DNA from: Pezizomycotina sp. ARF18
Taxonomy: Eukaryota; Ascomycota
Assembly: GCA_002224055.1 (NCBI GenBank)
Contig: AZLU01000246.1
Location: forward strand, 29,070 to 58,731
Direction of reading: 5' to 3'
DNA length: 29,662 nt
The notes below the pieces were generated by a model. It did no database searches. It worked only from the letters and a program-made list of their open reading frames with translations, and was not told the origin of the DNA. This document shows, in pieces, positions 1 to 27,445 of the stretch (its first letter is position 1; each line of letters opens with the position of its first letter). Made by a program: the position numbers and the translations under genes.

Positions 1-1476
1 AAAAAAAAAGTACCCAGTTCCGATAGTTTAAGCAATGCTTTACAGGGCTTCGTTTAGCTTTACCGTGTACGGAGCTCATGATCTCGCGCGGCGCGTACGC
101 TCCGGATGGGTATCAATCCAAGGTCAAACGGACCGCTGCTCGCCGATCTGCTTGAAGCGGGAAACAGCAGGTCCTTGAATTCCTCGCCCCAATCGTCGAC
201 GCCCGCTTCACGGTCGGAACGCGCCTATAACCAGTATCACTGCATAATTACAAAAAACGCCGTTAGAATAATGTTTTTTTTTTTTTTTTAGAATGCAAAC
301 TAACCCAGCGAAGTAAAACAGATTTCCCGCCGCTGGATAGCCCCCAGCTACTCCAAAGCGTTTGGTCGCGATCGAATGGCGTACCTTCGCAGCGTATGCT
401 GGCACGGCAAGCAGTGAACGACGGTTCGCTTCACCTTTTGAGCTATCTTTCCTTGTCCAGGGATATCGAAACTTCCGCGGCTTGTCCCACCAGTCCTCTC
501 CGTGCAATTCTTTATCCCACACTTCGCGAACCATTCTTGATTTCCAAGCGGCACGAAAAAAGTGCGCGTTCGGGTGCTTCGACTGGATTTTTCTTAACTC
601 CGTCAGGGATAGATGGTCGTAGTGCGATGGATATGACACGGCACGTCGACGAGGGGATGTCCTCAATTTGGCAGGGTGCTCCGTTATAGCGGGCAGGCCC
701 ATCCACGGTAACGGCGAACATCGTTGGCCAAAGAACCTACATCATAGTAAGCACAGCAGATAGGTCAGTTCCACTTTCAAAAACATGCGAGTATACATGG
801 ACGTAAGTAGCAAGTTTCATACCGGGTCGAAAGAGTGCTCTAAAACCACCGGGAAACTCGACCAAGTAACAGGCATGGCCGAGCCAGGTCGCACGGAATT
901 TTTCGTCGGCTTATAGATCTAGTCTCTAAAAATACAGGTTTGGTAACGGTAGGGATATTTGGAGGGTTCGTGTTTGGTCGTTCGCCCTTGAAAATGCTCC
1001 TATTGGAGAGAGGGTTAAGTCACATATTAGCGTAGCACGTGGCGAGCTTCGCGCAGCAATTGTGCGACTCTGAGGATTTTTTTTTTGAAAAAAAAAAACA
1101 AATCTCACCCTATAAGCCATTTGAAGATCTTCCAGCGGTCCTGCATTTGAAAACTGGATAATCAAATATTGTTAGCAAGTTGTTGTATGTATTCTATAAA
1201 AAAAATTGCTCCGGTGATAGAGAAACAAAGCTGTAGGTTTATCCAATGAATAACCAGAACTTCGCGCGCGTGCAAGTTCACCGACAGCTTACAGCCGCCA
1301 TTCTGTTTCTTCAGCTGCCTTTTGTTGTTGCTGCTCTTGCTGTTGCTAATTTCCGACGAATAGTTGAAACTTACGAAGGCCACGGGTTTTGAACACGCCA
1401 TTTGGCTGGTGGTGCGCTTTTCCGACGCATCCGCAGGAGCTGGATAGGGCCTAGATGGAACAATAACTGAAGTCAT
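1..1476 (-). CDS. NAPEPLD: NAPE-hydrolysing phospholipase D (metallo-beta-lactamase fold), partial, frame-disrupted
   Basis: This family uses a metallo-beta-lactamase fold with bound zinc to release N-acylethanolamines from N-acyl-phosphatidylethanolamine; the yeast member is mitochondrial Fmp30. The ATG is at 1476-1474 ([14 protein letters not shown]...). Family landmarks follow in order but in changing frames: AHHQPNGVF then NPWPS near 1390, a Gln-rich linker, DRWKIFKWL near 1130, [17 protein letters not shown] near 860, RCSPLPWMG near 710, a metal motif S-H-R-H-Y-D-H-L near 610 (two C bases must be missing), [15 protein letters not shown] near 545, CLPCQHT near 410 and FAGDTGY, whose codons are joined across the last intron. 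Three introns are placed at 1000-1108, 737-822 and 240-304; the N-terminal linker probably holds another. The C-terminal third lies beyond the left edge. At least eight single-base indels interrupt the frame, so it is either a pseudogene or a poorly polished sequence. Family assignment is secure; functional status is not. Confidence -1.
240..304 (-). other. NAPE-PLD intron that restores FAGDTGY
   Basis: Read on the minus strand, the donor is GTTAGT at 304-299 and the acceptor is TTATGCAG ending at 240. The intron is 65 bp and holds a 16-base T run on the plus strand (274-289). Splicing joins TTC GCT GG to T GAT ACT GGT TAT and recreates the conserved FAGDTGY turn of the family, which is strong support for this boundary. 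Confidence -1.
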
Positions 1477-1801
1477 GAAGCTGAAGCGAAGAGGATCCGT
1501 CGGGGTTTGCTGCTTTGTAACGGGATACGAGGCGTGGTGCAATGGTACTTTAAATCTCGAGATCAGTCGCAGGACCATATATATGTAGTACGGACGTATG
1601 GCTAAGGAGTTGTGCCAAGGGAAAACGGTCTCGGACAATAAGGGAGAGAGAGGAGGAATTGGAATTGGATCGTTTGGAGGGGTAAGTTATATATGAAATA
1701 TTGCTTCGCTGGCAGTGGAATCGGCGTCCCCTTTTTTTTGGTTCAAAATTTAAAAAAAAAAAAAAAAAGTGGATAATAATCTTTTTTTTGTTTACTTTAA
1801 G

Positions 1802-1832
<31 letters not shown>

Positions 1833-3527
1833 GTTTTCTGTTGGAGAGGCCACGGAGCACGGGAAACTATTATTTACTGTTCACTTTTCGGTCGCTTCGC
1901 TTGCAGTCGGGCCTAAGACCCTTAAAGTCCGGATGCGTGATGTTTTTTGTCTTGGCACGGTAAAAAAAAAAAGAAGAAAAAAAGAAAAAAAGCAAAAGAG
2001 GCTTGTAAGCGAGAGAAGAAGAGCTTACAACTTACAAGTGTGACCTAGCAGAGTTCGAGAACTGTACGCGTAACACCTAAAAAAAAAAAGGAAGAAAGAA
2101 AAGAAAAAGAAGAAGAAACAAAGTAATCTCAGCCACGAAAGAGAAAAAGCTAGAGATCAAGTGAAGTACGTGGTGGGGCGGTTGGGAGATAATGTTGTGG
2201 TTTATGGCTATGGGCGACCGAGGAGAAGAGAATGTGGTGAAAATTATTATAAAAAATGCAAGAAGAGAAAAGTGAGATCTTTAAATGACGAACTATCAGA
2301 TAATCCTGTAGCTAAACTATCAGTTCAATAATAATATATAAGTAGTAACTTCGATTCAGATGATTTAGGCACGACATTTTGAAAGCTACGCACGATCGCC
2401 TACAGAGCGGGTGAAATTAATCGTGAGAACCTCCGATTTTTTAACGATATACTATGTGACATCTATCGAGTATATATATAGTCTTGTGGTCGGTGTTCCC
2501 GAGATACTTCTGTGCCTGTCGGTCGGAGTTCAGGTTGTTCCACACCTTAGCGAGGAATTCTCACATGTCTTGCGCGTTCATTAAGTCATAGACTCTGGAA
2601 ACTTGCTAGCCTGATCAAGAAGAACCAGACAAAAATGATATCAGCAAGCAGCGTCAACCTGTCTACTCCAATACTCTTAAAAGGCCTAGGCTACTATTTA
2701 TTAATTCCTCTGGGCTGGGAAAAGTTTGGTATTTTCTTCTCATATATACATGACCTAGAAATTATGATTGTAATGTGCAGCTAGTTTTTATAGATAAGAT
2801 ATATATAGATAAGGATAGCAAGCCGCAATTGCTAATTGTGTCCATTGCTTTTAACTCAGGCATGGTATTTTATTACTGCTTAATCTTATAGTGGTACTAT
2901 CGACAAGTCCGGACTACCAATATATTCGGAACTACCAATAATATACATACTGCTGATTCGGTAACCGTAATTTCAAATCGCTACCAAGTAGGAATATATT
3001 ATTATTGGCATATAGGAATATCCTAAGTAGAGCCGTGAACCAGATGAATAACGCGGGCCTCATTTCCCTAGGAAAGACGCTATCATTCCCAGGCAGTGTG
3101 CTAGGAATTTAACGTCTTCTTATAATCTTAGTTTAGTACTATAGTTGATTGGTTTTCTTAAGCTCGAACCCAAATTATGTGTAAATGAGTAAAGCGATAC
3201 AGTACAAATAATACAATGAAGTCACCCAAATGAGATATGTTTCTATTCCTGTTTAGCGCCAGCAAAATTGATAAGCCTTCTCTGGGAAGGATTCGTTGAT
3301 AAATGAAGTATACAGCCCCTGGCAGCCATAAATTGCTAAGACCGCAATGGTTTTTTTTTTTTTTTTTTTTTTTTTTGTCCTTTGAAAAAACGTAAATTTG
3401 AAATGGCGTGTCTCATCATATGTGATTAACTCTTCTAATATTGTATACTATTACCCTACAGATGCGTTTATAATGGCCTTGATACTAGCGAGCACTAAGC
3501 TAAGCTATACACTGAAAACTCGAATTC
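1477..3527. other. Intergenic AT-rich region
   Basis: No convincing gene is visible. The stretch is upstream of the NAPE-PLD gene on one side and downstream of the minus-strand gene on the other. It contains a TA dinucleotide run at about 1808-1832, several A-rich runs between 1750 and 2110, and a 26-base T run at 3351-3376. Open frames here are short and low in complexity. Confidence -1.
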
Positions 3528-4800
3528 TCATACCGGGTTAAACAACCACAAGAAAATGCCGCGTAGGAAGGCGTACTGGGGCTCGAGTGTAGGTTGGGTG
3601 CCTTTCTGTCTGCGATTCCACTCGCTCCAGGCGACCTCCTTTTGTTCCCTCTCATCAGCGTACAGTGAAGCTAGGTCTGGATCGGGCAACTTCAGCTTGC
3701 ATAGCATAATCCAGCCCTCAGAGTCGGTCATGAGACCCTTTACAATTCCTCCTACATCTTCGACTTCGCCTTCACCCTCACTTAATTTACCGCCATCTTC
3801 GTTCTCATCTTGTCCTTACTCTTTCCCTTACTTTTGTCCTCGCTTTCAAGGTCGGCTTCACCTTCGCCTTCATTCTTACTTCATTCTTACTTTCAACGTG
3901 AGCTTTATCTTCAACTTCACCTTCACCTTCACCTTCACCTTCGCCTTCGCTCCCGCTCTTATTCACACCCCCACTTTCTCTTCAAGTGTATCCTCTATTG
4001 AAGCAGAAATATTCGCATTCTTCTTCTCCTTTCAGCCCACTCGGATCAATCTCAACCTTCCATTCTTCCTTAACAGGCTCGTCAACGCTTCGAGCCCTTC
4101 CTCAAATCCCTATAGAGAACACGGTACATTACTGCCGTCCCCTTAACCTCCAACCACTCCCCCTTCTCTTCGTAACAACGATGGTAGAGCGTGTCGAGAT
4201 TGCGGTCAAGCCGTACGAGCTCGCGAGCTTGATCTTCTGCCGGCTCAGGAAGCCTTGACGGCTTTATTAATCCTCTGGACGTAGTAGACATTATGAGGGA
4301 CTGCTCGACTCCTTTAGTGTGTTTTTCTGAGAACTCTTTCGTCGAGGTATGGGGTACCCCCAGATCCGCTTCCATTTGCTTAAAAGCCATTTTGGCACTT
4401 TTGCAGCACTGCTGCATTGCTTTGGCCAACTTGTTCAAATTTTACGGAAGTATTTATTGAGCTTTCTCAGTTGGCCGCGGATCGACGTAAATGATGAGGC
4501 GGTTCGTAGAAGGGTATATTGTCATGAATTCGTGTAGCCTTTGTTCCTGTAATGGATTGGTGGGGGTGGACCAGGAGGGGTCTTTTACGCGGGTAAGAGA
4601 ATACGATATTGTAGTATCCTTAGGTATACGCAAATTAAACTGACGGTAGGTGCGGAAGATATTAATGGAATATCTTTCTAATGTTGGCAACTTTGGTGAT
4701 ATTTTGGTGGCAGCTCTAGATGATAGCTGATGGATGGGATGAGAAGGGTGGAATATATATCCAATAACTAAGAAGAAGAGTGAAAGAGGGTACTTTTCTG
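3528..4800 (-). CDS. Unrecognised protein with acidic Gly-rich repeat, frame-disrupted
   Basis: Coding character continues on the minus strand in changing frames. From about 4800 the frame reads through HPIHQLSSRAATKISPKLP and RYSINIFRTYRQFNL to a basic segment near 4490-4440 (PSTNRLIIYVDPR). After a frame change near 4460 comes an amphipathic helical stretch (LNKLAKAMQQCCKSAKMAFK), then a charged segment ending RVLYRDLRKGSK near 4085. The next part is an acidic low-complexity linker rich in EGEGEG at about 3900-3960. The C-terminal block starts with GLMTDSEGWIMLCKLKLPD near 3740 and ends at the stop at 3528. No start codon is certain and no intron is needed. I do not recognise the family. 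The disruptions resemble those in neighbouring genes, so the intact product may be about 400 residues. Confidence -1.
3900..3960 (-). repeat. Hexanucleotide repeat coding Glu-Gly
   Basis: The plus strand shows tandem cttcac/cttcgc hexamers. On the minus strand they read GAAGGT and encode an EGEGEG run inside the unrecognised gene. Similar scattered units occur at about 3750-3790, suggesting local slippage expansion. Confidence -1.
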
Positions 4801-7104
4801 CTCCTTAAGCACACTATTGCCAAGGAAAGACAGTACGTTATTAGAGTTCCTTCGCTTCTCGAGCGAAGATTCACTAAAAGTAGTTGCTCCTAGGAGGAAA
4901 GTTTCAGAACATCTTTGTGAAGTTAGTTTACAGTTTGATCATGAGAGCAAGGAGGAAGAAACGCAAGAAAACAATAATCAATACTTTAGAGTTAAAAGGT
5001 AGTTCCCGCAAGATCTCGTAGAAGCTTATTCTGACACGTCCAACTTAAACATAGTTATCTTCAATACCATTAAAATTGTAATTAATATGAATACTTTCTA
5101 GAATGCTGTTATCGCGACCTTCAATACAAGGAATCTAGACACAGCAATGTGAAGAGATGAAAACATCGTCCTGTAAGCTGGGGACTCCAAGGATCCTGAT
5201 CTCAGCTACGCTGAGAACTGTGGACATCTGAACATGTTTACGGGACTGGACTTGGAGTTAGAGGAGCTCCTCGATGTAATCTCAATAACAGCCTTCTTGT
5301 GTAGCAGTGTCGTAATTTTCGGCCCCGAACAGGAACTTGCTACGGAGTAGGATTTTATTATTTACAAGTACAAAGTTGTTTTATCGATAGATATTTCGAA
5401 TGATTAAAACTATGGAGTATTGACGAGGGAAAATAAATAAATAATAAATAAGTAAATAAATAAATAAATAAAAGGAGAGATCAAAACTTGCTTAGTTTTA
5501 CGCGCTCGCGAGGTAGGGAATTGAGCTCTAGTTCCAAAATAAACTTAGAAGCTCTACAATATTTCAAATTTTGATCAGTAATGTTTGTAGTCCATGACAA
5601 TTGCGTCTTAGCATGCAATGCGTTATATACTAGCCTCCTCCTTATCGAAGGGAGCTCAAGGTTACAGCGTCTAAACGAACCTTGAGCTACGAGAATATCT
5701 TGCAAGGTACAAAGAAAACTCATCTCCGACCTGAATTAATCATTTCAATACATGCGATGAAAAGAAGCGTTTAAACTTTTTATTTTTTTTTTTTTTGAGG
5801 CATTACCTCTATTTGTATATCTTGTCGACAAAATTGAACTTGGAACTTCCCTTTTCATGAGACCGTTAAAAAGATAACATCGGCGAAAGGAGACGACTAA
5901 TTGAGTGCAGCTGTATATATACGATAGTCCGATAGCCCGTGCATCATGAGCATGTATTTTTAGTGAGCGGTAAGCGGTAAGCGTCCAGTAGTATATTATC
6001 AACTACCGAACAGCGATCCTGTCAAAGCGACTTCGATCGCGACACCTCGAAGGACGACTTAAGCTATCATTTCCAGAGAAGGGCTCAACGCACAGGCCCA
6101 CCTCGGTATCCAATTTCTTCCTTCAAAATTGATACTAAAACGATCCACTTGTTGAGTGGTGCATCTTCGCAATTGACCAGATAGATCGAAATCGTCCTGT
6201 TTAACAATTGGTTAGACCATCGCTAGCTACAGCTGCAAGGTGCTTGATAGTAGCTGAATGAAAGTATATTTTTCTCGATATGTTGCTCGTATTTCTTTTG
6301 CCTCTGATGTTTCTTTTCCGTCTTTCTTTCCTTTTTCCTTCTGATGAGTTGAAGGGGCACTGAGTTGACAATAGTTTTGTGTTAAGCGCCTTGGTCGTTT
6401 GGGCTTTGCAGAATTCTGACAGTTCGTGCAACTCCTGTGTTCCCCTTCTGGAGTCCTGGGTGCTTAACGCTCGTGGCTCAACATGGTGGGGTTGACGGAA
6501 AGGGGAATCCAAGAGAAAGTGGGGAAAAAACCGATTTTGGGACTTGCCCACTTTATAACGCCGATCTTGCTATAGGAGAATATTTCCGCCATAGGTGTAT
6601 TTATTGTATTCACTGTAAACGATGCGATCCCGAGCTCGACAAACATCTGGACAGGGTAAAATAGGTGGGTTAAAATGAATAAATGGATAAAATAAAAATA
6701 GGAAGGATTCTGTAAAGTCCCCCACTCTGACCCTTTATCATAGGTAGAGCTTTCTTTTACGGGAAGGAAAGATTCTTGAAAAAAAAAAAAAAAAAAAAAG
6801 CAAAATTAAAGCTCCCGGATTTTATGCGCCCAAGTTAACTTTTGGCGATCAGGAGCGCCAAAATCTGTAGTTCGACGCTAAAAGAACCAACAGCTAGGTC
6901 CTCGGTAACAGTAATAGCTAGCTCGTTATCCAGGAGCGGGCCTGCATGAGCGGATTCTTACAGGCGTTGAAGAGCACAAGAAGCTTTAGCCTATCAGACT
7001 AAAACTCGAGCCTCGCACCAAGAGAAAAGAAAAGCTCCCGGAAGAGGCTGGACGTTCGACCATCAACATGGGAATCCGCGTCTATTTATGGATCAACGAA
7101 TTGC

Positions 7105-7138
<34 letters not shown>

Positions 7139-7611
7139 AATTTTCGTCAAACCAGTTCGAACGGTGAGTGGGGAAAGGTACTTTACCACTTTTGGAAGTG
7201 ATGATCCTTTTTGTCGCTTTTTTAGAATATTCAGAGATTTGCTAGAGAGTTGAAGGATTCCACCACTGACTTACTCCAGCGCAGACAACTTTTGTAAGCA
7301 ACTAGACTTAACAATTTCAATTTTGGGGTTGTCTTTCTCTTAACAGCCTTTTTTGGATTTTAGTTTATTTTTTATTTTTATATTTTTGTTTGTTTTATTT
7401 ATTCTAAACATTAGGCGCAAGGCGCAAGGTAACGTCGAAACCTAAGAGTTGATTGTTTTATGGTACGTCAAGTACCGTAGTAGTCAGAAACCCCTACTGA
7501 CCCATATATGTCAACGACCGTTAGAGGAGCGCATTAACGGAAGCTCAGCCTTGACGACTCTTTGTTCCAAGTTTCCAAATAATTCCTGGGTATTGATTTT
7601 AGGAATCGCAA
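4801..7611. other. AT-rich region without firm genes
   Basis: I see no gene I can support. A plus-strand frame at 4817-5002 (61 codons, starting at a TTG) and one on each strand near 6200-6660 have some coding flavour but no recognisable motif. Simple repeats include AATA tetranucleotides at about 5430-5474, a 21-base A run at 6779-6799 and a 32-base A run at 7106-7137. Several A runs follow purine-rich sequence, as in worn retroposon tails, but no element body is recognisable. Confidence -1.
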
Positions 7612-7877
7612 ATGGCGGTCGGTAAATCACTGTCGTCTGGTTATAAAGATATAGCTTCATGCCACCCGGCTAAAAGACACATCTCTACGAAAGTCAGGAG
7701 AGAAATAGATATTCCAGTTTTTTCATTACCATATTCTATGCGAAATATCTCTTTTTCCTCTTGGTCGAACACCGGAGCACCTCGAATACCCTTTCATTTC
7801 CTATCGCATTTGAGGGCCATCGTGGTGACGGCGGTCATCGATTCGCGCAGATCCTTCTCACTGAAAGGGCGCTGCGA

Positions 7878-8671
7878 TGAGCATGGACGACCCAACTGAT
7901 ATGGGACAATCAAATTCAAAGAGTGCGGGCAACGAAGCACCAAAGGAAATGGTGTAACAATGCTTCTTTCTGCGCTTGAATTGTTTCCCACAAGCTTTGG
8001 CAAAAGACCAAGACTCACCATACTCTAGTTGTTTCTGGAGGGGTGGTCTTCGTCCTACTCTTTCGATCTCGACCTTCCACGGAAGACATAAGTGTTCTGC
8101 AAGCATCCCACCTTGACGCCAAACGAAAACAGTACTCGTCGCAGCGATAAACAGAGCGCTGAAAAACACTCCCTCTCGAAATCTTGGCTCAATAACAGTG
8201 CGGAAAAGGACATAAGCGCCGAAGATCTTGAGGCCGTTATCTCCAGAAGCCTCGCGCAGAAGGAGACGTCTTCAGCAGCGAGGGGCTAAGCTTAATAGCG
8301 GTTGACTTCTACTACGCGCTTAAGAAATGCTTCTCGACCTCTCGAAGGCGCTGAGGAGGGAGCTGCAGCATTCAGCACCCAACACCCCATCTATCGATAT
8401 CGAAGGGACCGAAGGAGACCTCAAAGTGCGGCGCCGCACAAACACGTGGTCCTTAGGGACATGGTTGCAGCTTTGCGGAGGCTGGTTTCCGTCGAAAATC
8501 GAGGCAAGACAGTCGAACGAGCGGAGATCGACGAAGTCTACCCGGACCTCCGCGTAACCGATGAGGCTATCGAATTCTTCAGAGAGCTTATAACGCCAAA
8601 TTCGGTGAGAGAGGGATAGTTGCTGGAAAGCTCTCGACGACGAGCATTTGTATGAGGAACCGAAGGACTAG
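7878..8671 (+). CDS. Unrecognised helical protein, frame-disrupted
   Basis: An ATG at 7878 opens a short frame (MSMDDPTDMGQSNSKSAGNE), which I take as the likely start. Coding character from about 8090 is clear but changes frame. The segments are SKSWLNNSAEKDISAEDLEA in frame with 8092, then FSSEGLSLIAVDFYYALK from 8268, LLDLSKALRRELQHS from 8327, HVVLRDMVAALRRLVSVENR in the original frame, then AKFGERGIVAG from 8595 and KALDDEHLYEEPKD ending at the stop 8669-8671. Each of these five changes is equivalent to one missing base, several beside short G or A runs. The product appears rich in charged amphipathic helices. I do not recognise the family. The part between 7960 and 8090 is unresolved and may hold an intron or further breaks. 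Confidence -1.
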
Positions 8672-10111
8672 GAGATAATGTAGATGTATATCGAAGCTCT
8701 GCGTCATCTGCCATGGTGTAAATCTACGATAAAAGAAAATTGGATCGGCCAGCACCCGAAAAAGGCGTGCAATCGCCTGGAGATTACCTTCGCCACACCA
8801 GTGCTGCGCCACGCTGAGGCGTTGATGATGTCATAGCCGTTTTTCCTTTTCACTGCTTCGAGACACGAGATGAATCGATATCCTTTTCTTTTCTTTTTCC
8901 CTTCTTGTATTCCTACTTTTTCTCTCCTTTTCTACTTCGTTACTCGAAGGCATGGCACGAACTTTTTTTTTTTTTGAGAAGGTGCAGAGCTGGGACCTGC
9001 GTCGTCGTCGCTAATCCAATTGGTCGAGTTGATTTGCCTCCATTTTACCTCTTCTTCCTCCCCTATTTTCGCCTTCGAGCCCTTTTTTCTGATGTTACAG
9101 CTCCTGTCTATAAAATTGATTCTTCACGAGGTAATTGATGTCAGAATTCTATACTGAAACACCAAAAAAAGGAAAGTGTCGTTTTTCTTTGGTCCGGTTT
9201 ACAACGCTTATTTGAGTTGGAGCAAAGGCTGAGGATGACGTACATGGTATGTGATTGGGAACGATCCGGTTAGAATTCCGTCAAATGCAGTCTATCGCCA
9301 CGGCTCGTAGCGGAAAGCCACTCAGAGGTGCTCAGCAAGAAAGTACTCTGTGGATGAGACTTTGTTGGACACTTTTTGTCTGCTGAAAATACTCAGTGCT
9401 GAAAACGAAAACGGCTTTGTTCACACAAGACTGAGCGCGTAGCGTATTTCCTCTTAAACAAAGCAGCAAGGAGACCCTAGAGTCCGCTCGAAACATCTGC
9501 TGGATATTCTTCTGTCTTCAGCCTCTTGACATTCTCTCTCCGTGGAAATATAAGTGAAAAACGAGACACCTGCTTCAAAGCAATCCCGGTCTCAAAATTA
9601 AAATGCCGAAAAAATAAGTTTGCGTTGGTTCTTTTTTCCTTTTTCCTTTTTCCTTTTTTTTTTCCCTTATTTATTACAGTTGGTGTCGTCATTGGAGGGC
9701 GCGAATTTTAATTTGCAGTCTTATAATAATAAAAATAAAATAAAATAAAATATATTTCCTTTTTTTTTTTTTTTTTCTGATTTTGAATGGTTACAAAAAA
9801 GCAACTCCCCCCTACAAAGAAAGAATCACCCCATTGCTACCAATTTGCGCTGCGATCACAATTACGCACCAAATCGAACCAAGCCAATTGCATGCAAGGT
9901 CTCCACACGCACACATCATAAACAAAGCAGGGCTGGGGGACAGGCAAAAGGTCTCTTTCTCACAAAGTACATCACTCTTCCCTCTAAGAAAAAGGTGAGG
10001 AGAACTCCTTCCAGGTGAAGCGCGACAAGGGCAGAAAAAAAAGAAAAAAGCAAAAGAAAGCACTCGAAGACATCTCCGTTGGCTATTCCCCCGCTAGGGT
10101 CTACTGATAGA
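8672..10111. other. Intergenic region upstream of PMP3
   Basis: No gene is supported. The sequence has T- and CT-rich stretches at 8880-9080 and 9630-9665, an AATAA-type run near 9730-9750, and a T run near 9761-9777. The final 250 bp, rich in short C and A tracts, are the probable PMP3 promoter. Confidence -1.
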
Positions 10112-10118
10112 TATAAAA
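10112..10118 (+). promoter_or_regulatory. Likely TATA box of PMP3
   Basis: TATAAAA lies 160 bp upstream of the PMP3 ATG and is followed by a pyrimidine-rich leader, the arrangement common at strongly expressed fungal promoters. The transcription start itself is not visible. Confidence -1.
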
Positions 10119-10277
10119 GAAAGGCTCGCCCTCCCATCGTATCAGTCTCCTCTTCTGTCTATTAACATCTTTTCCTTACAACAGATCTGTAAACCGAACA
10201 CTAAAACAAACAAAACACCCATCCTCCATAACCTCAACAACAAATCTACTAAGCTTACGCTTGTCCAATATACAAAT

Positions 10278-10962
10278 ATGCCTTTCACCGCCAGGTAAGT
10301 CTTGAATGCTGGCTTTGCTCTTCCTCTCGAGACAGATTCCTGAAAGACTGTTATATTTGCTGACTCTCGGTTCATTATAGCGACATTTGCAAGGTAAATA
10401 ATAAAAATTCTCTTCCGGTGGCTCCGCCGGTATCCGGGGATCTCCTTGTCCCCAAGCCTAGGACTCGTTCTTACTCGCTACTTGCGCATATGACCCTTTC
10501 GCTATTTGTGACATGGGACAGAGGAGAAACAGGAAAGAAAAAAGAAAAACAAGGAAAAATACGGAAATGCCGCACAAAATAAAAAAAGAGAGAGAAACTT
10601 GATAGGGTGCAGCAGAGCTATGACAAAATAGTGCATACCTAAACTCTGTGGCTGGGGAAAGAAGGAATAAAAAAAAAAATCCACAAAGCGCCGCAACACC
10701 AAGACAAAGGAGGTAAGGAAGTGTGCTAATCATCAGTCGCTTTTTAGATCATCCTTGCCATCATCCTCCCACCTCTCGCGTCTTCCTAGAGCGTGGTTGC
10801 AATGCCGACTTTTTCATCAATATCCTCCTGACGATTCTCGGTATCTACCTGGTAAGTACAATATCTTCTTCCTCAACACTCCTGATTGATTAAACAAGAG
10901 CTAACGTCTAATCTTCTCTAACCAGGCATAATCACGCGCTCTACATAATCTTGAAATATTAA
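10278..10962 (+). CDS. PMP3: Plasma membrane proteolipid 3 (UPF0057/PMP3), four exons, three one-base losses
   Basis: PMP3 is a tiny two-helix plasma-membrane proteolipid that influences membrane potential and salt tolerance. Exons are 10278-10294, 10381-10393, 10748-10851 and 10926-10962. They encode MPFTAS, DICK, then IILAIILPPL, VFLERGCNADFFINILLTIL, and a final HALYIILKY-like end. Total coding length fits the usual 57 residues. Three positions each lack one base relative to the family: CTCGCG where CTCGGCGTC is expected (about 10777), GGTATC where GGTTATC is expected (about 10841), and ATCACG where ATCCACG is expected (about 10933). Donors, acceptors and branch-like CTGAC/CTAAC sites are all intact. 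Identification is secure; as written the reading frame would end at a TAG in exon 3. Confidence -1.
10381..10393 (+). other. PMP3: 13-nt micro-exon of PMP3
   Basis: CGACATTTGCAAG sits between a TTCATTATAG acceptor and a GTAAAT donor. With the last two bases of exon 1 it encodes S-D-I-C-K, exactly the conserved PMP3 N-terminus. The following intron (10394-10747) is 354 bp, far longer than any other intron in the window. Confidence -1.
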
Positions 10963-14159: not shown

Positions 14160-15566
14160 GAGATATACGGATTGGAAATTCGTGTCTTCCTAGCAGTTTC
14201 TAGAAAATACTAGATGATATATCCATCCCCACTGGCAGCGTTTCATCCTCCTTCAGTTCGCGATAATATGAAGGACTTAACCTTCAGAACGAGGTACCCG
14301 CTTTGAAGCGCGGGAAACTACTGGCTCCTCACCTCGGTATAAACCATACTTGTACTCGCACATCCTACTGTAAGAAGCAGAGAAGAATTTATACGACATA
14401 CACCTAACCCTTTCAAATCTTCATGTAGCCCAATCTTGCTCTTTCAATTGCATCTTCATACGTGACAGCTGAATATTTTCTGAAAGGAACGGTCTTTAAG
14501 TACAGAAACATAACTATAACTATTATGCTGGAGAAGGGTTATAAAAGGCTACTATTTTTTCTACCGTCCAATCTGGACCGAACATTCTGTCTTCGGGTGA
14601 ACTTGGTGTCCCAGCACCGGACGGGAGATTTCTTTGAATAAAATTTCAGCATCGTTCAGTGAATAATTATGTCTGATAATATCAAAAACACCTGTTGTAT
14701 TCACACTGCCCGATATCGTGGGTCCTGTGTTACCCCTCTGATAGTCCGTACGTGTGCACTGGTCGTGACAGTAATCACTACTCGCAGTTTAGTAACGTGA
14801 CAATCCCTGTCTTCAAACCCTTCAGTTCTCGTTGAAGGACTTGAGATACACACGTTTTGCCACGGCCCTGTGCTTGGCGGCAATACCATTGACCTGCTAG
14901 GTGAAAGGCTGGGGTTTTATCATTCTTTGTCCTTTGCAAATAAGTAGATGCAGTTGAAACTAGTTATAAGCTGTTGTAGTCGGAGAAAATGGTCTGAGGC
15001 CTGCTCATGAAAAAAACGGTTCAAGGTCCAAAATGGCTCAATAAAAGATTTGAAGCGAGCCAAAAAAAAAAAAATTTTTTTAAGCCGGCTTATGTAAACC
15101 AAAATTGGAGGGGGAAAAAAATATACTCTTCGCTTAATCCTGCCCCAAATAAAAAATCGGAATGATTTCATGTCACTTTCAAATATAGCAGGGTCGTGAA
15201 AAAAAAAAAACTCAAGTTATCCATTCTCTTTTTTCTTCTTTTCTTTTCTTTTTTTTTTTTTTTTTTTACAGTTTTGTCCCCAACATATATCCTAACTGCA
15301 CGCCTGCCTGACATCTTTCACAAGCTCAGGGCTTGCAAGCTTCCTGGAGCTCATTCGCTAGGCTAACTCGCTTTGTTTTTTTTTTTTTTTTTTTTTTCCT
15401 ATTTAGCCCGGACAAAGATTGAGCGACGAGAAAAGCTAGGAACCTCAACTTTAAAAGGAGAAAAAAAGAAGTTTTTGGAGCTTGAGAAACTAACAAACAA
15501 GACCGTGCTTTCTAATCTCACAAGCCGAACCAAAAAAAAAAAAAAAAACAATGGCTTTTCGAACCT
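14160..15566. other. Intergenic region with poly(A/T) runs
   Basis: No supported gene. Homopolymers are T at 15249-15267, T at 15376-15397 and A at 15532-15548, three runs within 300 bp. They flank the 3' end of the next minus-strand gene and may lie in its 3' untranslated region. Confidence -1.
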
Positions 15567-17637
15567 TTATATATATGTATATTTATAATTTTCAATTCCT
15601 TGCTCCGGATCTTCCTCGAGGTATCGCAAAACTTCCGGCATACTGTAAACACTGTTGATCCGTCCATTTTCGTGCCCTTTCTCGACCTCTCTGGCGAGTC
15701 TGTCAACCGTTCCACTTTGCTCTCTTCTTGTGCACTATGCGGCGTTACAAGCTGTAGAGAATTCTCGTGCATCTCTTCATCTTCATCAGGCTGAGTCGTC
15801 CTCCGCTGTGTGTCTGTCACGCTGTCCCTCGAGGCCGAACGCTTACACAATAGTGTAATCGTTTACTAACCCCTCTGGTAAAACATAGCTCCCGTAGAAG
15901 CCACATTTCAAATCACACAGCTGACGCAACAGAGATGAGAACGCTGATGATGGATCGGGTTGTGCCAATAATATCTGGAAGGACTGAAATCCCACGACTT
16001 CCAATCGTCTTGGCGCCACATGTCGTGCAATTGCTGAGCCCGACAGGCCGACAAGTGAACGCTGACCATCGCCAGCTGCCTTCCCGACGGAGGTTCCTCG
16101 CCAAAGGTGAGAAATCGGAAAATATTCTGTTGGTAGACTGGGGTCTATTTTCGAAATTGAGAAACCTATTTTCCTATTCCAGCTTTTCGGAATTCCATCC
16201 AGTTGGAATATCGACGCATCGATTTTGTCGTTAAGAAGTCGATAAGAAGCCGCTGGTGGAATTTGATTTGGGTCTTTCGGCCACGAAAGTACGTATTCGG
16301 GATGAAGAAGTGGCTTAGTTGACGACGCGAGCGTAATATCAGATGTGAAGGATTGGGGGAAAGGGTTGTTGGAGTTGAGTTTGGAATCGAACGTGTGCAC
16401 AGGTTTATACTTTGTGTAAGAAATTAGTATTTGTAGTCGTAGCGACCAATATTAAGCAATCATTTCATGTACGTCAGCTTACCATATGACCTTCTTCGTC
16501 TTCGAGAACAGGCCAATCATTAACCCCATAATAGCCGGTTAGATGTTTAAAAAATCTCAACAACCATGACGTTTCCTTCCTCCAAAGGTAATGGGACATG
16601 TGCGTTGGGTAAGTGTTTAGAAGTTCGTCGCTGTCGTGTTTCTTTACAGTAACACCGAATGAGGAAGACATTTGTTGCCGGAAACATTGATAAGCTTGCC
16701 TGGTAGGTCACTGGAATATGACCCACTAGATGTTAGAATTCTGAGATCCAAATCCCACATCTAAAGCTAGCAGAGTTTTAGGAAGTATACCTCGTGTGAG
16801 CGAATACTCCGACTCTGGCTGTGACTATATAACCGCCTACCGTTGTTGGCAGATGTTCTGAGTCGCTATCCATTTCATTTTTGTTATCGTAGAGAAGCAG
16901 AACATGTCGAGACAGGAGGAACGAAGCGCTATGGAATTTGTAATGTCGAAGAAACCCCACTAGCCTCGGGTCTCTTGAAACCATTAGCGCTATCATATCC
17001 TCTTCGTTTACAACCGCACCAAGTGGATCGGGAACGATGGAAGATTGTGCGATGTACATCCCTAGTTGAGGAACTACAGGTATATTCCCTAAAGAAAGAG
17101 GAATGCTCTCAACGGACTGCGCTAGGTCGACTGTGAGACTCCATGCAAGACCTTGATTACAAAGTACTGCACCCTTTAACGAATCTGGAGCTAATGCAAG
17201 GACTTCCGCTGATTGGCCAGCGTTACCAACATGTGTGGTACGGGATCTGTCTGCATACTGGCAAGTAGTTGTTCCTCTGCTTTGTGTAGTGACTCCGTTT
17301 GAGAGGGAAGGAGGAGCGGAGGATGATGAAGGAGATTGCTGATTCAACTGCGACAGTTTTTGGCGGGAGAGGGCCAAAGTTGATGATGATGATGAGGGTG
17401 TTTGAATTGCTTTGCGTGGTGATTTCCTTTTTTGTGGAGAGAGGGGAGCGGAAGATGATGAAGGAGATTGCTGATTTAGCTGCGATGGTTTTGGCGGGAG
17501 AATGGCAAAGTTGATGATGATGAGGGTGTTTGAGATTTGCGTGGCGACTTGGTCCTTCGAGGTGACGATATCGTTCGCCAGTATTCTCCGTCGAGACCGT
17601 CGGTTGCAATAGAGAATGGGTTGGATCCAGATGACAT
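15567..17637 (-). CDS. Unrecognised three-exon protein with Ser/Pro/Gln repeats
   Basis: ATG at 17637-17635 begins MSSGSNPFSIATDGLDGEYW. Exon 1 runs to 16791, exon 2 is 16699-16483 and exon 3 starts at 16409. Introns are 91 and 73 bp with GTATAC/CCAG and GTAAGC/AAAG ends, and both junctions keep frame (HT-RQAYQCF and EEGHM-YKPVHTFD). The N-terminal third is a Ser-rich, probably disordered region with 44-residue repeats (SQLNQQSPSSSSAPLSPQKR and similar). Exon 1 is exactly one base short for its phase; the repeat comparison places the loss in an A run at 17492-17489. Later exon 3 changes frame near 15848 into an acidic tail (TQPDEDEEMHENS) and again near 15645 to MPEVLRYLEEDPEQGIENY, stopping at 15567. 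I do not recognise the folded part. About 630-650 residues if intact. Confidence -1.
17310..17570 (-). repeat. In-frame 132-bp tandem repeat (44 codons)
   Basis: The segment containing gcggaggatgatgaaggag at 17316 recurs as gcggaagatgatgaaggag at 17448, a period of 132 bp or 44 codons. The copies encode SQLNQQSPSSSS and (K)SPRK-QTPSSSSTL elements of the gene at 15567-17637. A homologous A run is five long in one copy (17357-17361) and four long in the other (17489-17492). Confidence -1.
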
Positions 17638-18818
17638 CTTGAATATGAGCAAATGTTTCAAAAAGTTTCGGGTAAAAAGGTAAAGAGAAGCAAAGGGACA
17701 CAGCGAAGATGAACGATTAGAGGTTCATGATTGATGGAGAACGAACTTCAAGGGGGTCTTAGCGAATATTGATTTTTGGGGTAGAGCCTGGTTTCATACC
17801 TGATGTTCCCAGAGTAGCAGTCGATGTCGATGAATTTTTTGTTCTGACGCTTGATCTGGCTTTTACGGTTCTGATATTTAAGGTTGTTCGGTTGCATATC
17901 CCTATTTGTCGTCTATTTTCCTTCCTTGAGTTAAAATTTCAATCTCAACCATCTATATCCTCCCGTACCATGCGGAAGAGTCTGTGGTAGTTTAGATGAC
18001 TTGGGGTTCGAGATTTCCAAGAAGGAGAAAAAAGTAAATAAAATGGAAAATCGGGAAGGATTGAAAACGAGAATGTGTTCCTCGCCTCCTTCCTCACTTC
18101 TTTCTTTCTTTTTTCTTTCTATCAGAAAAACAAGGACCTAGAAAGAAAATGCACCCAATGGACCCTTTTTATGGGGCGATTAAAGCTTCTCACTAGCTGT
18201 GAAATCGCCACGCTCTATACGATTAGTATATCAGCAAATATCTAATGAACTGAATCGAGTCGAGAAGGCGCTGTTTTCGGAAAGATACCGGTGGAGGAGA
18301 AACGATTGTTTATTATAGGAGGAAGTATATAGTATAAAGAAAAAGAGGAAGAGAGAAAAAAAAATGTTAGCAATGGAAAGTTCTAGTTTTTGTACAAAGT
18401 ATAGTTAAAAGCGCCTCAGAAGAGAAGCGGCTATCTTCCTTTTCATCTCAAGTATCGATGTTTAAGGACTTACCTTAGTTAGTACGCGTTTTATAAGAAG
18501 AGGACCAACTTAAGTTAAATACTACTAATGACTTAAAGTAATAACTCTTTTTCTTTGACTGATAAACGTCGTCATGCTTTGTTGCTTTAATATGGTGACT
18601 TGAACATTATTTACTTGCTTACTTTCGGGATTTTTCTCTCTCTCCGCTTCTCATTTTCCTTTTTTCTTTTTTTCTTTTTAATCGCATACCTTACTTACCC
18701 TCGTATATATATATATATTTGAGCCCAGCCTGCAGATGCATATGACGAAGAACATCTTCACGTTAAATCTATTCTTCAACTTCTCTCAATTCACGACCGT
18801 ATTGAAATCTGTTCTCCA
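17638..18818. other. Intergenic region
   Basis: I see no supported gene. The first few hundred bases are the probable promoter of the minus-strand gene. The region holds CT-rich tracts near 18090-18120 and 18640-18680 and a TA run near 18706-18719. A plus-strand frame at 17769-17990 lacks recognisable features. Confidence -1.
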
Positions 18819-19055
18819 ATGAAGAGTTCCTTTTACCGGATAACTACCCAGAAGGTTGCCGTCCCCTTACCAGAGGGCACGGAGCCTTGCCGGGTAGCAT
18901 CACACCCAAACGCCCGAAGGGGTTATCTCGCACTAGCTCCAGAATTGTTTGCTATTTCAATTGTTAGTTGCCCCGATCCTCCTTTAAGCAAGAAAGAAAG
19001 AGATAACCAGGTATCACTCTACGTGGGTAAGTATAATGACTGTACTAGGTGCTAA
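18819..19055 (+). CDS. Possible first exon, unrecognised
   Basis: An ATG at 18819 opens a 78-codon frame (MKSSFYRITTQKVAVPLPEG at the start). The frame meets a good donor, GTAAGT, near 19026 just after SLYVG, so the natural exon may end there. No acceptor partner or family is clear. It could be a short separate gene or chance. Confidence -1.
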   Translation: MKSSFYRITTQKVAVPLPEGTEPCRVASHPNARRGYLALAPELFAISIVSCPDPPLSKKERDNQVSLYVGKYNDCTRC

Positions 19056-19162
19056 TATCTTTTGTGTATATCCCCTTATTAAAAGCCCATTTATTTTTTA
19101 TGTATTTCCCCAGTCAATTTTTCCCCTTTTCAATCTTATAACGAAGCGCGTAAACCTCCCTC

Positions 19163-19331
19163 TACTACATCGTATCCATCTACGCCTTCTTCCCCTTCCC
19201 CTAACCGCATTATAATATCGTATGGTAGCTTTAGCCATTCTATTTTCTTTCTTTTTCCATTATATCGTGTCTATTTACACCTTCTTCCCCTTCTTCCAAC
19301 CATATTATAACATCGTACGGTAGCTTTAGCC
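19163..19331. repeat. Imperfect 95-bp-period tandem duplication
   Basis: The segment 19163-19236 is repeated at 19258-19331 with a 95-bp period. The 74-bp copies align without gaps and differ at about 14 sites, all C/T or A/G transitions. The duplicate lies just upstream of the gene starting at 19407, possibly in its promoter. Confidence -1.
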
Positions 19332-19406
19332 TTCCTATTCTTCTCTTCTTCCCCCCTGTTTTTCTCTTTTTTTCTTCTTCCTCCGTCCCCGCCTAGCGAC
19401 GACAAG

Positions 19407-21004
19407 ATGGGTGGGGCTCAGGAAAGGAATCGGAAGAAAAGGGCGGCAGAGAAGCTTCAGTCGATATCCACCGAATCTCGATTAGCGAAAGAAAAGTCTC
19501 GCCATACACAAGCAGTCCACGATACGCAAGAGGAAATGGCCCGGAGGCTGTACCTGGGTAATTTAATTTACGCTGCTAGACCAAGTGAAATCGTATCTTC
19601 ATCCAGAGGCAGCAAATTAACATTACTACAATGTTCATTACCCTCGATGTTAATACTGAAAAAAACCTGTCTTATTGCTTTATTGAGTTAACACGGTAGA
19701 GGAGAAGGAAAGAGCGAAAAAAAATATTGCACGGCATCAATTTTCTCGAGAGACCAATCAAAGCATCGGATCCTCTTCACACTGGAAGGACACCCGCCCG
19801 ACAACAGACAACAAATTAATTTGCACCTTCGTTTACAGGATCGAGTCTGGAAAACACAGCCTGGGTAAGCCCCCCATCCATTCCATCAACTTATCAACAC
19901 TAATTTTCTTCTTTTCTAAATTACAGTACCACCTCCGGCTACGTCCCGTCCCAAAGGTATGACGTTGCGGCCTCCGGCGCCAACAATGATCCGGTTGGCA
20001 TGGACGAAAACGAAGAGGTTTGCGGGCCGGCGAACGCAGAGCTGTCATCCGTGCGGCAGGCTTACTCTTTTATTCTGGATATCTACCAAGTAATTTTTTT
20101 TAGAAAAAACGCACACTAATATTATAATGAGCTTATTAGGAGAAAAAGCAGAAACACAACCACGTCCACGCCTCCGATTCTCCTAGCCATACAAGTACAG
20201 CAGATAGTACGATTGGCGGCAGCGCTACGGTGAACACTACGGGAGCCCGCGGTGACACCGCTCGAGAACGCGGACATGATCACTCCAAACCCCTCCATCT
20301 TCCAGGTGTACAAGCACAAGCGGAACAACCAGCTTGACAAGCTGAATATGGGGCTGCGGGGAACGGGAACAATAAAGCAAAGAGGAGTGGGAATAGTAAT
20401 ACGCAACGAAATACAGCAGGCGTGGGCGGTCGAGCTCAGTCGGAAAATGATGCTGATAATTCCGTTTGTGATGAATACACTGAGCAGCTTCGCGAACGAA
20501 TACAGAAGCTCGAAATAACCCTGAAGAAGGAGCCAATTACTTTGGAGGCTTTATATTCGAAATGACTCGCGGGCAGACGTTTGTGTGGAAGATGGACGAC
20601 CAAGGAAATAAAATACCCGATTCGCTAGTCCTGCCCGGGAAGTCAGAGTTCAAAGAAGAACTCAGCAGGAAGTTTCTTGGCAAAGAGCACGACAACCTCT
20701 TTTGTAGATAATTGTATAGAAACTCCGTTCCATTTGATTATTTCTCAATCTGCGTATACTCTGAAACTAATAAAAATATATTTACAGGTATATCATTCTC
20801 AATATTAAGTCGCCTGTCAAAACTCTATGTGAAGCACGAATTCACGTTCCACACTATACATCCTACACCTATTCACGCGGCAACGATTCCCAAACCGGTT
20901 CGATAGTTGGTGGACAACAATCTCAATTACGAAAACGTATCGTGTCTGATTCTCCACGGTTTTCGTCGAATTCAGCCCGCCTACATTCTTTTCGAAATAT
21001 ATAG
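19407..21004 (+). CDS. Unrecognised multi-exon protein with coiled-coil segment, disrupted
   Basis: ATG at 19407 follows a CT-rich leader and begins MGGAQERNRKKRAAEKLQSI, a basic helical N-terminus. An intron probably starts near 19551-19560. A coding block then runs to 19864 (TASIFSRDQSKHRILFTLEG, QDRVWKTQPG). Introns at 19865-19926 (62 bp) and 20090-20139 (50 bp) keep frame into YVPSQRYDVAASGANN, RQAYSFILDIYQ and a Ser/Thr/Asn/His-rich linker. The linker contains a TGA at 20335-20337 and resumes in the same frame to a coiled coil (EYTEQLRERIQKLEITLKKE). After a one-base change at about 20560 it gives MTRGQTFVWKMDDQGNK and FKEELSRKFLGKEHDNLF. A further intron near 20704-20787 leads to a C-terminus that ends SARLHSFRNI at 21004. 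No family recognised. The single TGA could be mutation, a tiny intron or error. Confidence -1.
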
Positions 21005-21035
<31 letters not shown>

Positions 21036-21592
21036 TGTGTTTCCCCTTTCGACTTGTTAAGGAAGAGGAGGACTGTTCTCAAACGGCGCGCCATTCGGTG
21101 TAATGTTTGTCGTTCACGTTGTTTCTTTCCATTGATGCACGTAATGTAATTTTACCCTAGTCAATTCTCTAATCCGAGTTATTCAAATTCTCAACGGCCT
21201 CCCGCGTTTAGGCGATATGATAATCGTCTAAATCTTCGGGTCCCCAGTCCCATTCTTAATACCACAATCACTACCAAAGGCTATATGCTACAGAGTGATA
21301 GATAGATGACCGAATTATTGGTTTCCAGGTCTACATACAAACTGCGTGATATACACTCATTACGTTCCATCCTGAAGACTCTCGCTGGGTGTAGATACGG
21401 GGAATCGGAATTCCGGCTGAAAATTGCAATGCAGCAACAGTCGAATACCTCAAGCCGCACGTATATTGCTTCACTAATTATGCCTTCTCATCTCAAGATA
21501 AAGATCATGGAAGTTTTGACTGCTGGGTATTTATTACACCTTCAACCCGAGGTTTCCTGCAACTAAAGCTTTCCTCCATAGTTTCCCGAGAT
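21005..21592. other. Intergenic region
   Basis: T-rich run at 21007-21036, probably 3' of the preceding gene. A plus-strand frame at 21306-21566 (86 codons) has no recognisable motif and I do not call it. Confidence -1.
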
Positions 21593-22720
21593 ATGCCGTG
21601 CAAGAATCGAGGCCTGACTTTGAGACACGTCGCCGACGAAGTGAATTGTAAGCCAGGCGTTGATGAAGACGTTAATTTGCCGTGGAAAAACTTTGGGACC
21701 TAATGTCTGTCGAGCCGCTTAGGGCGACAGCCGGTCGAGTAAGTAAAGCTTAACTTATATGGTAGGAAAAACTCGGCCATGGCGAGAAAGCGGACCACCT
21801 TAGAAAGATAATAACGGTGGTAATATCTATAAGAAAAAGTCTAAGGAACTATGGAAAGTTTTAAGGAATGGCAGGCTAAAGTTAAAGAGGGTAAACGTAA
21901 AAAGCTCTCTAAAGCTAATCCGTAGAAAATTTATCAGAAGAGCCTGCGCCTTTTAAAATCTAAGGAGACTTTTTTGGGGGATATGCACTGGGATGAGGCA
22001 AAGGAGAAGCACGATGCGAAGAAAGGCAAAAAACCGACTAGAGCTAAACTCGACTATTAGCCCTGGGATAGAATGGGATTACTATATACTGGTACAAAAG
22101 TTTGTTCCTTCTCTATGTGGGCGTATCCCGTAAGTGACTATCCCTCAATCTGGAGGGAAAAATTTTTTAAAACCCTTATTCTAAGAGCTAGCTCTACGAA
22201 GATCGCGCCGAGAATATCCTTATCAAAATTCTCTTAGTATAATGACGGCTATAAAGTCCTCATCTACCTGTCTCTTACGCAAAACTCCAAGGCTGCGTTT
22301 TTCAAATATATCCCCGCCCTTATGAAAGATGCCTCGCAGAAGACTCTTAAGCTCTAAATCGTAGACGCAAAAGGGCAACTGAGCAGGGAAACCTTATTCA
22401 CGATATCGGGTTCCCCGGGATTAGCTCGAAGTCTTAAAGTACAGGAGTTTGCCGAATGACTGAAAGCGACGGATAATCTAGATGCCGGGTCGTTTCAGAA
22501 CGCGCTTGAGAAACGTGCGTAGCCACTCGGCGAGAAGAGGGAGGGAATCTTAGTATATTCTATTGGTCTAGTTTCTCAGCAGAGGTTGTTAAACATTCTG
22601 ACCAACCGGAATAGTGAAAAACGCGTACAAAGCTACGTCGGAATCTGCAACGTCCCCGTGAATGCGTCGAAAAATGGGAATCAACTATATACACCACAAA
22701 GCATCACGATTCGTATATAG
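21593..22720 (+). pseudogene. Decayed open frame with in-frame stops, family unknown
   Basis: A coherent protein-like translation begins with ATG at 21593 (MPCKNRGLTLRHVADEVN) and, after a poorly resolved stretch at 21740-21850, continues from 21851 for 289 codons (MESFKEWQAKVKEGKRKK, then GLLYTGTKVCSFSMWAYP, KVLIYLSLTQNSKAAFFKYI, FTISGSPGLARSLKV, ILVYSIGLVSQQRLLNILTN). Stops interrupt that second part at 21923, 22058, 22235, 22355, 22457, 22520 and finally 22718: five TAG, one TAA, one TGA. That is far fewer than chance, and there is no frame change across 860 nt, unlike neighbouring genes. Every stop can come from CAG, CAA, CGA or TGG by a C-to-T or G-to-A change. The lysine-rich N-terminal part and aromatic middle match no family I recognise; a mobile-element or captured gene relic is possible but unproved. 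Confidence -1.
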
Positions 22721-23453
22721 TCATTGAGTGTAACCACACCAAGCCAAGATACGTAGGTGTAATTATATTCAGCTAAAGAATTCGCGGAAGAAAGGTTGTT
22801 AAGGTGGTATAATTTCCGGTTTTCATTTATATTCGCCATCGGCATTATTATTTTTTTGTAAAGGTTTCTGTTTATTAGATATATCGGTAGCATAAGATAT
22901 GGCGATCATATGCAGATAATTTATCATATAATCCCGGGAAACGCAATTCGAATTTATGGGTAGACTATGCAAGTACACCAATTTTTTTTTCTTCTCGTTT
23001 CTTATACGTCCGATATGAAATTGCTTCACCTTAAACTTCCGTATTCAACCCATGCAAAGCGCACGTCACGGAAGACGGGAGAGTTGCGTCCCGTTCGGCG
23101 AGCTGCGAGGAGAGATAGTTTTAGCTACCAGCTTTTGGTTGGCGATGTACAAAAAACTGCGTTTGCTTTCGCATGGGTTACTTCGCAAGTCGTCGTTCCG
23201 GGCAAGGATATAATACTGATCATGAGATAAAATAGTACTGCAAGGGTTGCAGCTCAAGGTTGATTGATACACGATCACATATATGTAAATCGAGTTTTTT
23301 TGTGTCCCCCTCACTCGATACGAAGCTTCTTTCGGAAGACATTCCGGGGTGTTCGGATATTTAACTAAAGCTGTAATACGAGAAACAAACAATAGATCGA
23401 CGAGCTGTTGATATTAAACCCCCCCTTGAACTTCAATGTTAACTGTTGATGTC
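22721..23453. other. Intergenic region upstream of the P450
   Basis: AT-rich, with no supported gene. A plus-strand frame at 22967-23230 and its minus-strand shadow have no recognisable motifs. The downstream end is the likely P450 promoter. Confidence -1.
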
Positions 23454-23460
23454 TATAAAA
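23454..23460 (+). promoter_or_regulatory. Likely TATA box of the P450 gene
   Basis: TATAAAA lies 138 bp before the P450 ATG, in an otherwise mixed sequence. Position and sequence suit a fungal core promoter; no transcript evidence is available here. Confidence -1.
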
Positions 23461-23591
23461 TATGTCGCGACGCCCGGGTTGTGAAGAATCTCATCTTCAG
23501 TGAGAAAAGCTCCTACACATGGAGGAAACGCGATACAAGTAAATATACAACATTTATTTTTCTTTGAGATAAATCCTCTTACTCTTCGACG

Positions 23592-25393
23592 ATGGCTTGG
23601 ATTCGATACGACTATCAGCCTCCAGTTAGGGCTTCCTATCTCGTCGCTGGGGCAACCTTCTTTGTCTTCATACTGTACAAAATCCTACATGGCAATGGTA
23701 GAAAAGCGCCAGTCAACATCAATACCAACCAAACTCCGCCATACGTGGGATACCCGGAGAGGCTACCATGGTTGTTCCCCAATATACGGTGTGCGATACG
23801 AATCTTCAAGAATGGACCGACGCATTTCCAGGAGGGTTACCAGAAATATACTCGCCACGGTGAGATATTCACCTTGAAGGGTCTGGATGATGATGTTACT
23901 ATCTTGCCAGCAGATGCCTTGAACGAGCTGAAGCCGTACGGCGACGACGTGATTACAACTATGGCTGACGAGGTAGGTAGAACAACTCTTCCATTATGTT
24001 AATTTTTTTATGATCCCCTTCTCAAGTCTTGTAATGTAAAACATGGTCTCTTACTAAATCAATTTTTATATTTCTCCCTTGCACCTGAAGCTCCTGATGA
24101 CCAAATATACGCTTGGTCCTACGATTGGGTCGAACCCATACCATATCAAGATCGTAGCTAAAGACCTCACCTCGAAATTGAACCAAATCACCCCGGCGAT
24201 CTGGGATGAGCTCTCCATGGCCACGGACGACGCGTTCGAGCGCATGTGTTCGCCGCGAGATAGCGAGGGATGGCAACGAGTCACAATTTACAAAGCCCTC
24301 CTCGATATCATAGCTAGGACGTCGAGTAGGATCTTCGTCGGGCACCGCTCTGTCGGGAACTGGAATACCTTCACGCCAGCGTTGCCGCCGCGACGGCGGT
24401 TTCCCGCTCGCAATTTTGCTCCGCACGTTCCCAGATTTTACGCACTTCCTCATCGGGCCGATACTGAGCTACCCGATCAATCGCAAATTCAAGGTTATTT
24501 ACAAGCACCTGAAGCCGGTAATAGAAGAGAGGCTCGCTAAGATCAAAGCTGGTGAGCCGAAATCTGAGGAACCCAACGACCTCCTGCAATGGGTAATCCG
24601 AGCTTCCATGCAGCAAGGACCCGTTGAATCCAGCTCCTGGTACATCTGCCTGAGGATGATTACCCTAAATTTGCGGCAATCCACACCACGTCCCTCACGG
24701 CGACCCACGTGATTTACGACCTCGTGCACATCGCATCGCAGGCCAAACCCGGTGAACCTTCAATAATAGATACCCTGCGGGAGGAAGTGCAGAATAGCCT
24801 GGTGGACGAAAACGGACAAGTTTCCTTTCTGGAGGGAAAAAGACCGTTGCAAAAGTTGCCAAAGTTGGACGCTTTCATAAAGGAGACAGCTAGGTTGCAC
24901 TCGGCTGGAACGTTCAGCGTCATGAGAAAGGTTGCAGACCCGCAGGGTTTCGTGTTTAGAGGGTATCGCTATCCTTACGGCGCCAAATTTGCGTTGGCAG
25001 CGGAGGAGTGGCACCGCGATGAGAGGAATTGCACCAACGCGAATGTGCACGACTATACGAGATACGACACCGATTCGCATGTAGAGCGTTTAAAAAGCAA
25101 GAATACGTTCGAAGGGTCCGAAATGGCCCTGAGGAGAAGGCTGGGGGCGAAAAACGGAAGAAAGCAGACCGATACCTGACAACCATATCAGAAGAATTTT
25201 TGGTGTTCGGAGGACTGAAGCACCAGTGCCCTGGCAGATTCTTCTCAAACAATGAGCTTAGGATCTTGATTTCGTATTTCCTTTTGAACTACGACATCAA
25301 GCCTTTGGGATATCGTCCCAAAAGTATATATGTAGCATCTCAAAGTTCTGCGACCCGACCGTCGAGATAGAGATTCGCAGGAGGAGTCGTTAA
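23592..25393 (+). CDS. Fungal cytochrome P450 monooxygenase, five one-base losses
   Basis: A haem-thiolate monooxygenase anchored to the ER by its N-terminus. ATG at 23592 begins MAWIRYDYQPPVRASYLVAG, with a membrane segment (SYLVAGATFFVFILYKIL) and a proline-containing hinge. Exon 1 ends at 23972; the intron is 23973-24090 (GTAGGT, TTACTAAAT branch, CTGAAG). Exon 2 begins LLMTKYTLGPTIGSNPYHIK. The I-helix reads AAIHTTSLTATH (about 24675), the K-helix ExxR is ETAR in FIKETARLH (about 24885), and the haem loop is FGGLKHQCPGRFF (about 25206). These resemble fungal ent-kaurene-oxidase-type P450s. Five frame changes (near 24341, 24410, 24650, 25145 and 25345) are each equal to one missing base; the likely end is EIEIRRRSR with TAA at 25391-25393, giving about 530 residues. 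The fourth haem-loop position is Leu instead of the usual Gly or Asp. Class is secure; substrate unknown. Confidence -1.
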
Positions 25394-27228: not shown

Positions 27229-27445
27229 TCTTTTTTTTCTTTTCCTTTTCTTTTCCTTTCTTTTCTTTCCTTTTCTTTTCTTTTTTTCTTTTCTTTTTTC
27301 TTTTCTTTTTTCTTTTCTTTTTTCTTTTCTTTTTTCTTTTCTTTTTTCTTTTCTTTTTTTCTTTTCTTTTTCTTTTCTTTTTTCTTTTCTTTTTTCTTTT
27401 CTTTTTTCTTTTCTTTTTTCTTTTCTTTTTCTTTTCTTTTTCTTT

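Follow-up and report, generated by a model that had tools for sequence, protein, structure and literature searches.

Frame breaks in conserved genes of a Pezizomycotina genome assembly and their probable origin in sequence error

Several genes in the stretch of DNA considered here can be recognised by family and are broken by repeated changes of reading frame, which raises the question of whether these breaks belong to the organism or to its assembled sequence. The window, by which we mean this whole stretch of 29,662 nucleotides, runs from base 29070 to base 58731, the last of contig C246 (58,731 nt); the assembly has 46.36 Mb in 408 contigs. Its GC content is 42%, and its DNA has a fungal look, with small introns, PMP3, DUF7582 and a fungal-type cytochrome P450. 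The features concerned are:

1..1000, minus strand: gene named NAPE-PLD-like in the first-pass annotation, spread across three frames in the frame listing, with weak metallo-beta-lactamase matches
7865..8668, plus strand: DUF7582-like gene (7878-8671 in the first-pass annotation), frames 0>2>1>0>2>1 (8092-8668), PF24483 on two pieces
10277..10959, plus strand: intron-containing PMP3 gene, broken in frame at three places, PF01679
17357..17492, minus strand: internal repeat, with a run of five in one copy against four in the other
23568..25390, plus strand: cytochrome P450 gene with five frame steps, PF00067 pieces in frames 0 and 2
25575..26890, minus strand: a pair of long open frames, of 252 and 182 codons, named CNOT11 in the first-pass annotation, with no visible frame break and thus the exception in the window

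Frame breaks in the window genes

In the P450, the frame listing passes through the order 0>2>1>0>2>1 across 24058-25390, with steps at about 24340, 24372-24410, 24600-24675, 25020-25160 and 25325-25355, and in PMP3 (10748-10959) three losses appear against the conserved protein sequence of the family. Including the DUF7582-like gene, all 13 steps (five in the P450, three in PMP3 and five in the DUF7582-like gene) have the sign of one missing base modulo 3; they were placed by eye from the frame listing and what is known of the families, without an aligner. The earlier claim that each change in these three genes equals one missing base is in this way borne out. Pfam searches recover the P450 profile (PF00067) in two pieces and two frames, one over the cut-off (profile 272-393, E 3.1e-12) and one under it (profile 397-445, E 8.2e-4), as well as PMP3 over the cut-off (E 3.5e-8) and two pieces of DUF7582 that each fall just under it (E 5.4e-5 and 4.6e-5).

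Two of the first-pass gene names were not confirmed: for NAPE-PLD, a single piece matches Lactamase_B_3 in Pfam (E 0.087) and a metallo-beta-lactamase structure (E 0.12), the other pieces giving no match, and for CNOT11, Pfam and PDB searches with the frames of 25575-26890 returned no convincing match. The short runs in which losses had been proposed are all present in the sequence: 24340-24342 reads GGG, G stands alone at 10778 as does C at 10933, and one repeat copy has T4 at 17489-17492 where the other has T5 at 17357-17361. The last of these pairs, given as AAAAA and AAAA on first pass, is weak evidence because the repeat copies differ by substitutions too. That family motifs are otherwise unaltered was put a little too strongly, since the haem-binding motif of the P450 reads FGGLKHQCPG (window 25185-25328), with L at a position where the consensus has G or D.

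Elsewhere in the window, 21740-22800 has the appearance of a decayed mobile element, and a whole-genome DNA search for a near-identical copy of it found only the stretch itself. A long CT-rich microsatellite occupies 27230-27493 and ends in a T run of more than 40; long homopolymers are kept there, though short runs elsewhere seem shortened.

Conserved protein genes and 5S rRNA across the assembly

A chaperonin family search of the genome gave 33 matches at eight loci, and all eight chaperonin/CCT loci are split between frames. At seven of them, judged by match coordinates and frames, matches that adjoin or overlap each other change frame where no intron would fit, and at the eighth, Hsp60 on C70, the split is seen in an alignment; the chaperonin gene on C139 is CCT-gamma by PDB comparison. 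Searches with the histone, ubiquitin and ATP synthase beta families met the same scattered pieces, and no whole copy of the broken conserved genes was found in the genome family searches. The breaks are therefore genome-wide but patchy, and the suggestion that the error is local falls with the conserved loci hit on other contigs.

Five loci, all off the window contig, were aligned with a protein-to-DNA aligner written for this analysis, which models GT-AG introns and charges nearly the same for a frame event of -1, -2, +1 or +2: polyubiquitin (C346), histone H3 (C32 and C66), Hsp60 (C70) and ATP synthase beta (C404). The references were ubiquitin, histone H3, GroEL of Rhizobium etli and AtpD of E. 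coli. Over 4,599 coding nt we found 32 frame events (22 of -1, 7 of -2 and 3 of +1, all three gains in Hsp60), that is, one per 144 bases, with 36 bases lost and 3 gained, or about 0.8% of positions. The spectrum had been described as same-sign; its strong loss bias stands, but it is not exclusive, with 29 loss events against 3 gain events at these loci. No in-frame stop codons occur in the five alignments; in-frame codon gaps do (for example, one in polyubiquitin) and lie outside the event count. At the same penalty, polyubiquitin carries 5 events, H3 on C32 carries 2, H3 on C66 5 and ATP synthase beta 7, while Hsp60 carries 12, 13 or 12 when aligned with GroEL from E. coli, R. etli or Mesorhizobium, respectively; lowering the penalty brings ATP synthase beta to 11 events and Hsp60 to 13.

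As a control, GroEL of E. coli or R. etli was aligned to whole groL genes, in four alignments to three genes at 51-67% identity, with 0 frame events; the Cupriavidus groL, which is unannotated in its record, was accepted as whole on the strength of a single match over 95% of the query. In five simulation runs with planted indels, the events were recovered with the right sign: 8 and 10 of 10 losses, 6 and 3 of 10 losses and 5 gains, all of 10 gains, and 9 and 7 of 10 losses and 10 gains. Close indel pairs merge or vanish, so the event counts given above are more likely low than high.

In polyubiquitin, 295 of the 296 aligned codons, over four units, are identical to ubiquitin, beside six lost bases. 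The losses recur at homologous places, at residues 35-39 in three units and at residue 3 in two, as expected of errors that depend on the local sequence. On C32, the H3 copy aligned to residues 5-117 only, with 91 of 110 codons identical, and may be a variant. On C249, a ubiquitin-eL40 fusion gene is also spread over several frames, and its ubiquitin part seems to carry several amino-acid changes, unlike the polyubiquitin gene. Histone-fold matches number only five, at four places in the whole genome, a low number for a fungus; indels may have pushed broken short genes below detection.

An untranslated counterpart is provided by 5S rRNA, for which we found at least 17 matches of varied length among the best 47 of 1,990 candidates scored. 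After alignment, each copy, minus its final base, was set against two type sequences, and six were put aside as diverged or 3'-truncated (C39, C18, C17, C77, C36f and C7; C39, for instance, has 8 substitutions and 3 losses, and C18 has 9 substitutions and 2 losses). Among the 11 copies kept, four are the type sequences or identical to one, and the seven near-type copies have 13 losses, 1 gain and 5 substitutions. Twelve of the 13 losses lie in runs of two or more, which make up 34-39% of the bases; not all of them are independent, because one is common to two copies, two lie side by side in one copy, and type B is known from one copy. Whole and broken copies thus coexist in the genome. There are at least two types of 5S rRNA, different at about 10 of 119 positions, and diverged or 3'-truncated copies besides.

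One further contig, C50 (at least 230,876 nt), appears to be a mitochondrial genome of very large size. It carries 33 of the 57 tRNA matches listed, all on one strand (among the best 63 of 1,606 candidates scored), and all five COX1 matches, which are spread from 91,811 to 206,518, with the N-terminal part in two separate copies; long introns, rearrangement or repeated pieces are possible reasons for this spread.

Origin of the breaks

With a probability of about 0.96, we consider the breaks to be errors of the assembled sequence and not of the organism, left by indels scattered unevenly through a consensus that was poorly polished and probably built from long reads. The error reaches across the genome regardless of gene function or essentiality, as the chaperonin/CCT genes and the five aligned loci attest; it reaches untranslated sequence too, in the 5S rRNA; and indels far outnumber substitutions, both in polyubiquitin and in the near-type 5S copies (14 against 5). 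Between the breaks, the encoded protein sequence is hardly altered. A living cell cannot have ubiquitin, H3, Hsp60 and CCT all dead, and consensus error therefore remains as the explanation.

The rival view of the window genes as genuine pseudogenes, free of selection and in decay beside a few live genes, draws on the facts that P450 and DUF7582-like genes are often dispensable, that one open gene adjoins the broken P450, and that the haem motif departs from the consensus. Decay, however, predicts that essential genes are spared and brings substitutions and stop codons, whereas single-copy and essential genes elsewhere are broken alike, without a whole copy in the family searches and with neither in-frame stops nor, in polyubiquitin, more than one changed codon. 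We accordingly regard this reading as improbable, and the first-pass proposal that some genes really are dead would have to be extended to ubiquitin, H3 and Hsp60; some window genes could be dead in addition to the sequence error. A mutator acting by homopolymer slippage, also raised on first pass, would account for the concentration of the 5S losses in runs, but every aligned conserved gene is broken, most of them by several events, and a genome truly changed in this way would have killed its cell, which makes a mutator scarcely credible.

Readings in which the assembled sequence is right and the cell compensates have known parallels. In Euplotes, programmed +1 ribosomal frameshifting operates in many genes with one prevailing sign, and the many breaks of one sign in conserved genes here are alike in this respect. 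Recoding is limited to translated sequence, though, and 5S RNA is never translated, so that ribosomal recoding cannot be the cause of its losses; besides, losses of two and +1 events occur, and the sites differ between homologous ubiquitin units. That programmed frameshifting or other recoding reads through the breaks is thus extremely improbable. In Physarum mitochondria, insertional RNA editing restores single bases missing from the DNA of both coding and non-coding RNA genes, and single bases are likewise missing from both kinds of gene here. Editing at short runs, restoring bases patchily in nuclear mRNAs and 5S RNA, was considered and rejected: the genome is of nuclear type, the losses lie largely in runs, and whole and broken 5S copies stand side by side, all of which leaves such editing with a negligible chance.

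Some observations sit less easily with error in the consensus. Right beside the broken P450, the frames of 25575-26890 stay unbroken for about 1.19 kb, by the first-pass figure. Were events uniform, at one per 151 nt, such a stretch would have a probability of 4e-4; a rate of one per 200 gives 0.003, and one per 340, which by our estimate is roughly what the P450 itself shows, gives 0.03. Run content does not explain the open stretch, since runs are more abundant there than in Hsp60; uneven depth or polishing would be our guess. Unbroken stretches exist elsewhere too, since 48 regions (192,849 nt, picked mostly for conserved genes) contain 37 open frames of at least 200 codons, 5 of at least 300 and 2 of at least 400, the longest with 643 and 499 codons. 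The scarcity of frames of 300 codons or more, on the other side, favours sequence error. A run of three or more lies near 14 of the 32 coding events against 9.4 expected, a borderline excess (p 0.06) based on imprecise placement, in a test that is conservative because a shortened run counts as shorter. A reference-free frame HMM, applied to both strands of the 48 regions, favoured the one-missing-base sign by 29:22, 53:33 and 60:42 in three rounds, and carries little weight because short introns can pass as steps.

Consensus error and its meaning for the genome

Under consensus error, the assembly process would drop bases, mostly singly and often in short runs, unevenly along the genome; an indel-prone, nanopore-like long-read consensus with too little or uneven polishing is the cause that we infer. 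A close counterpart is offered by nanopore-only assemblies of Drechmeria coniospora, in which gene prediction recovered fewer than one-sixth of 305 conserved genes at full length, most inspected errors lay in homopolymers, and their distribution was patchy and without clear pattern (PMC7500977). As in those long-read-only assemblies, conserved genes are broken by indels here; unlike in them, where insertions exceeded deletions in the polished sequence (PMC7500977), losses prevail, with 29 of 32 events, and the use of a long-read technology for the present assembly is therefore only presumed.

The broken essential genes on other contigs and the losses in 5S rRNA support the preference of the first-pass annotation for long-read consensus error over decay; its observation was mostly right, and its artefact reading is extended to the whole assembly, with no new biology needed. 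Until the genome is polished, its predicted genes, its counts of pseudogenes and any finding that depends on reading frame are consequently unreliable. Where a genome is unannotated and relatives are scarce, errors of this kind can be tested for quickly with polyubiquitin units and copies of 5S rRNA.
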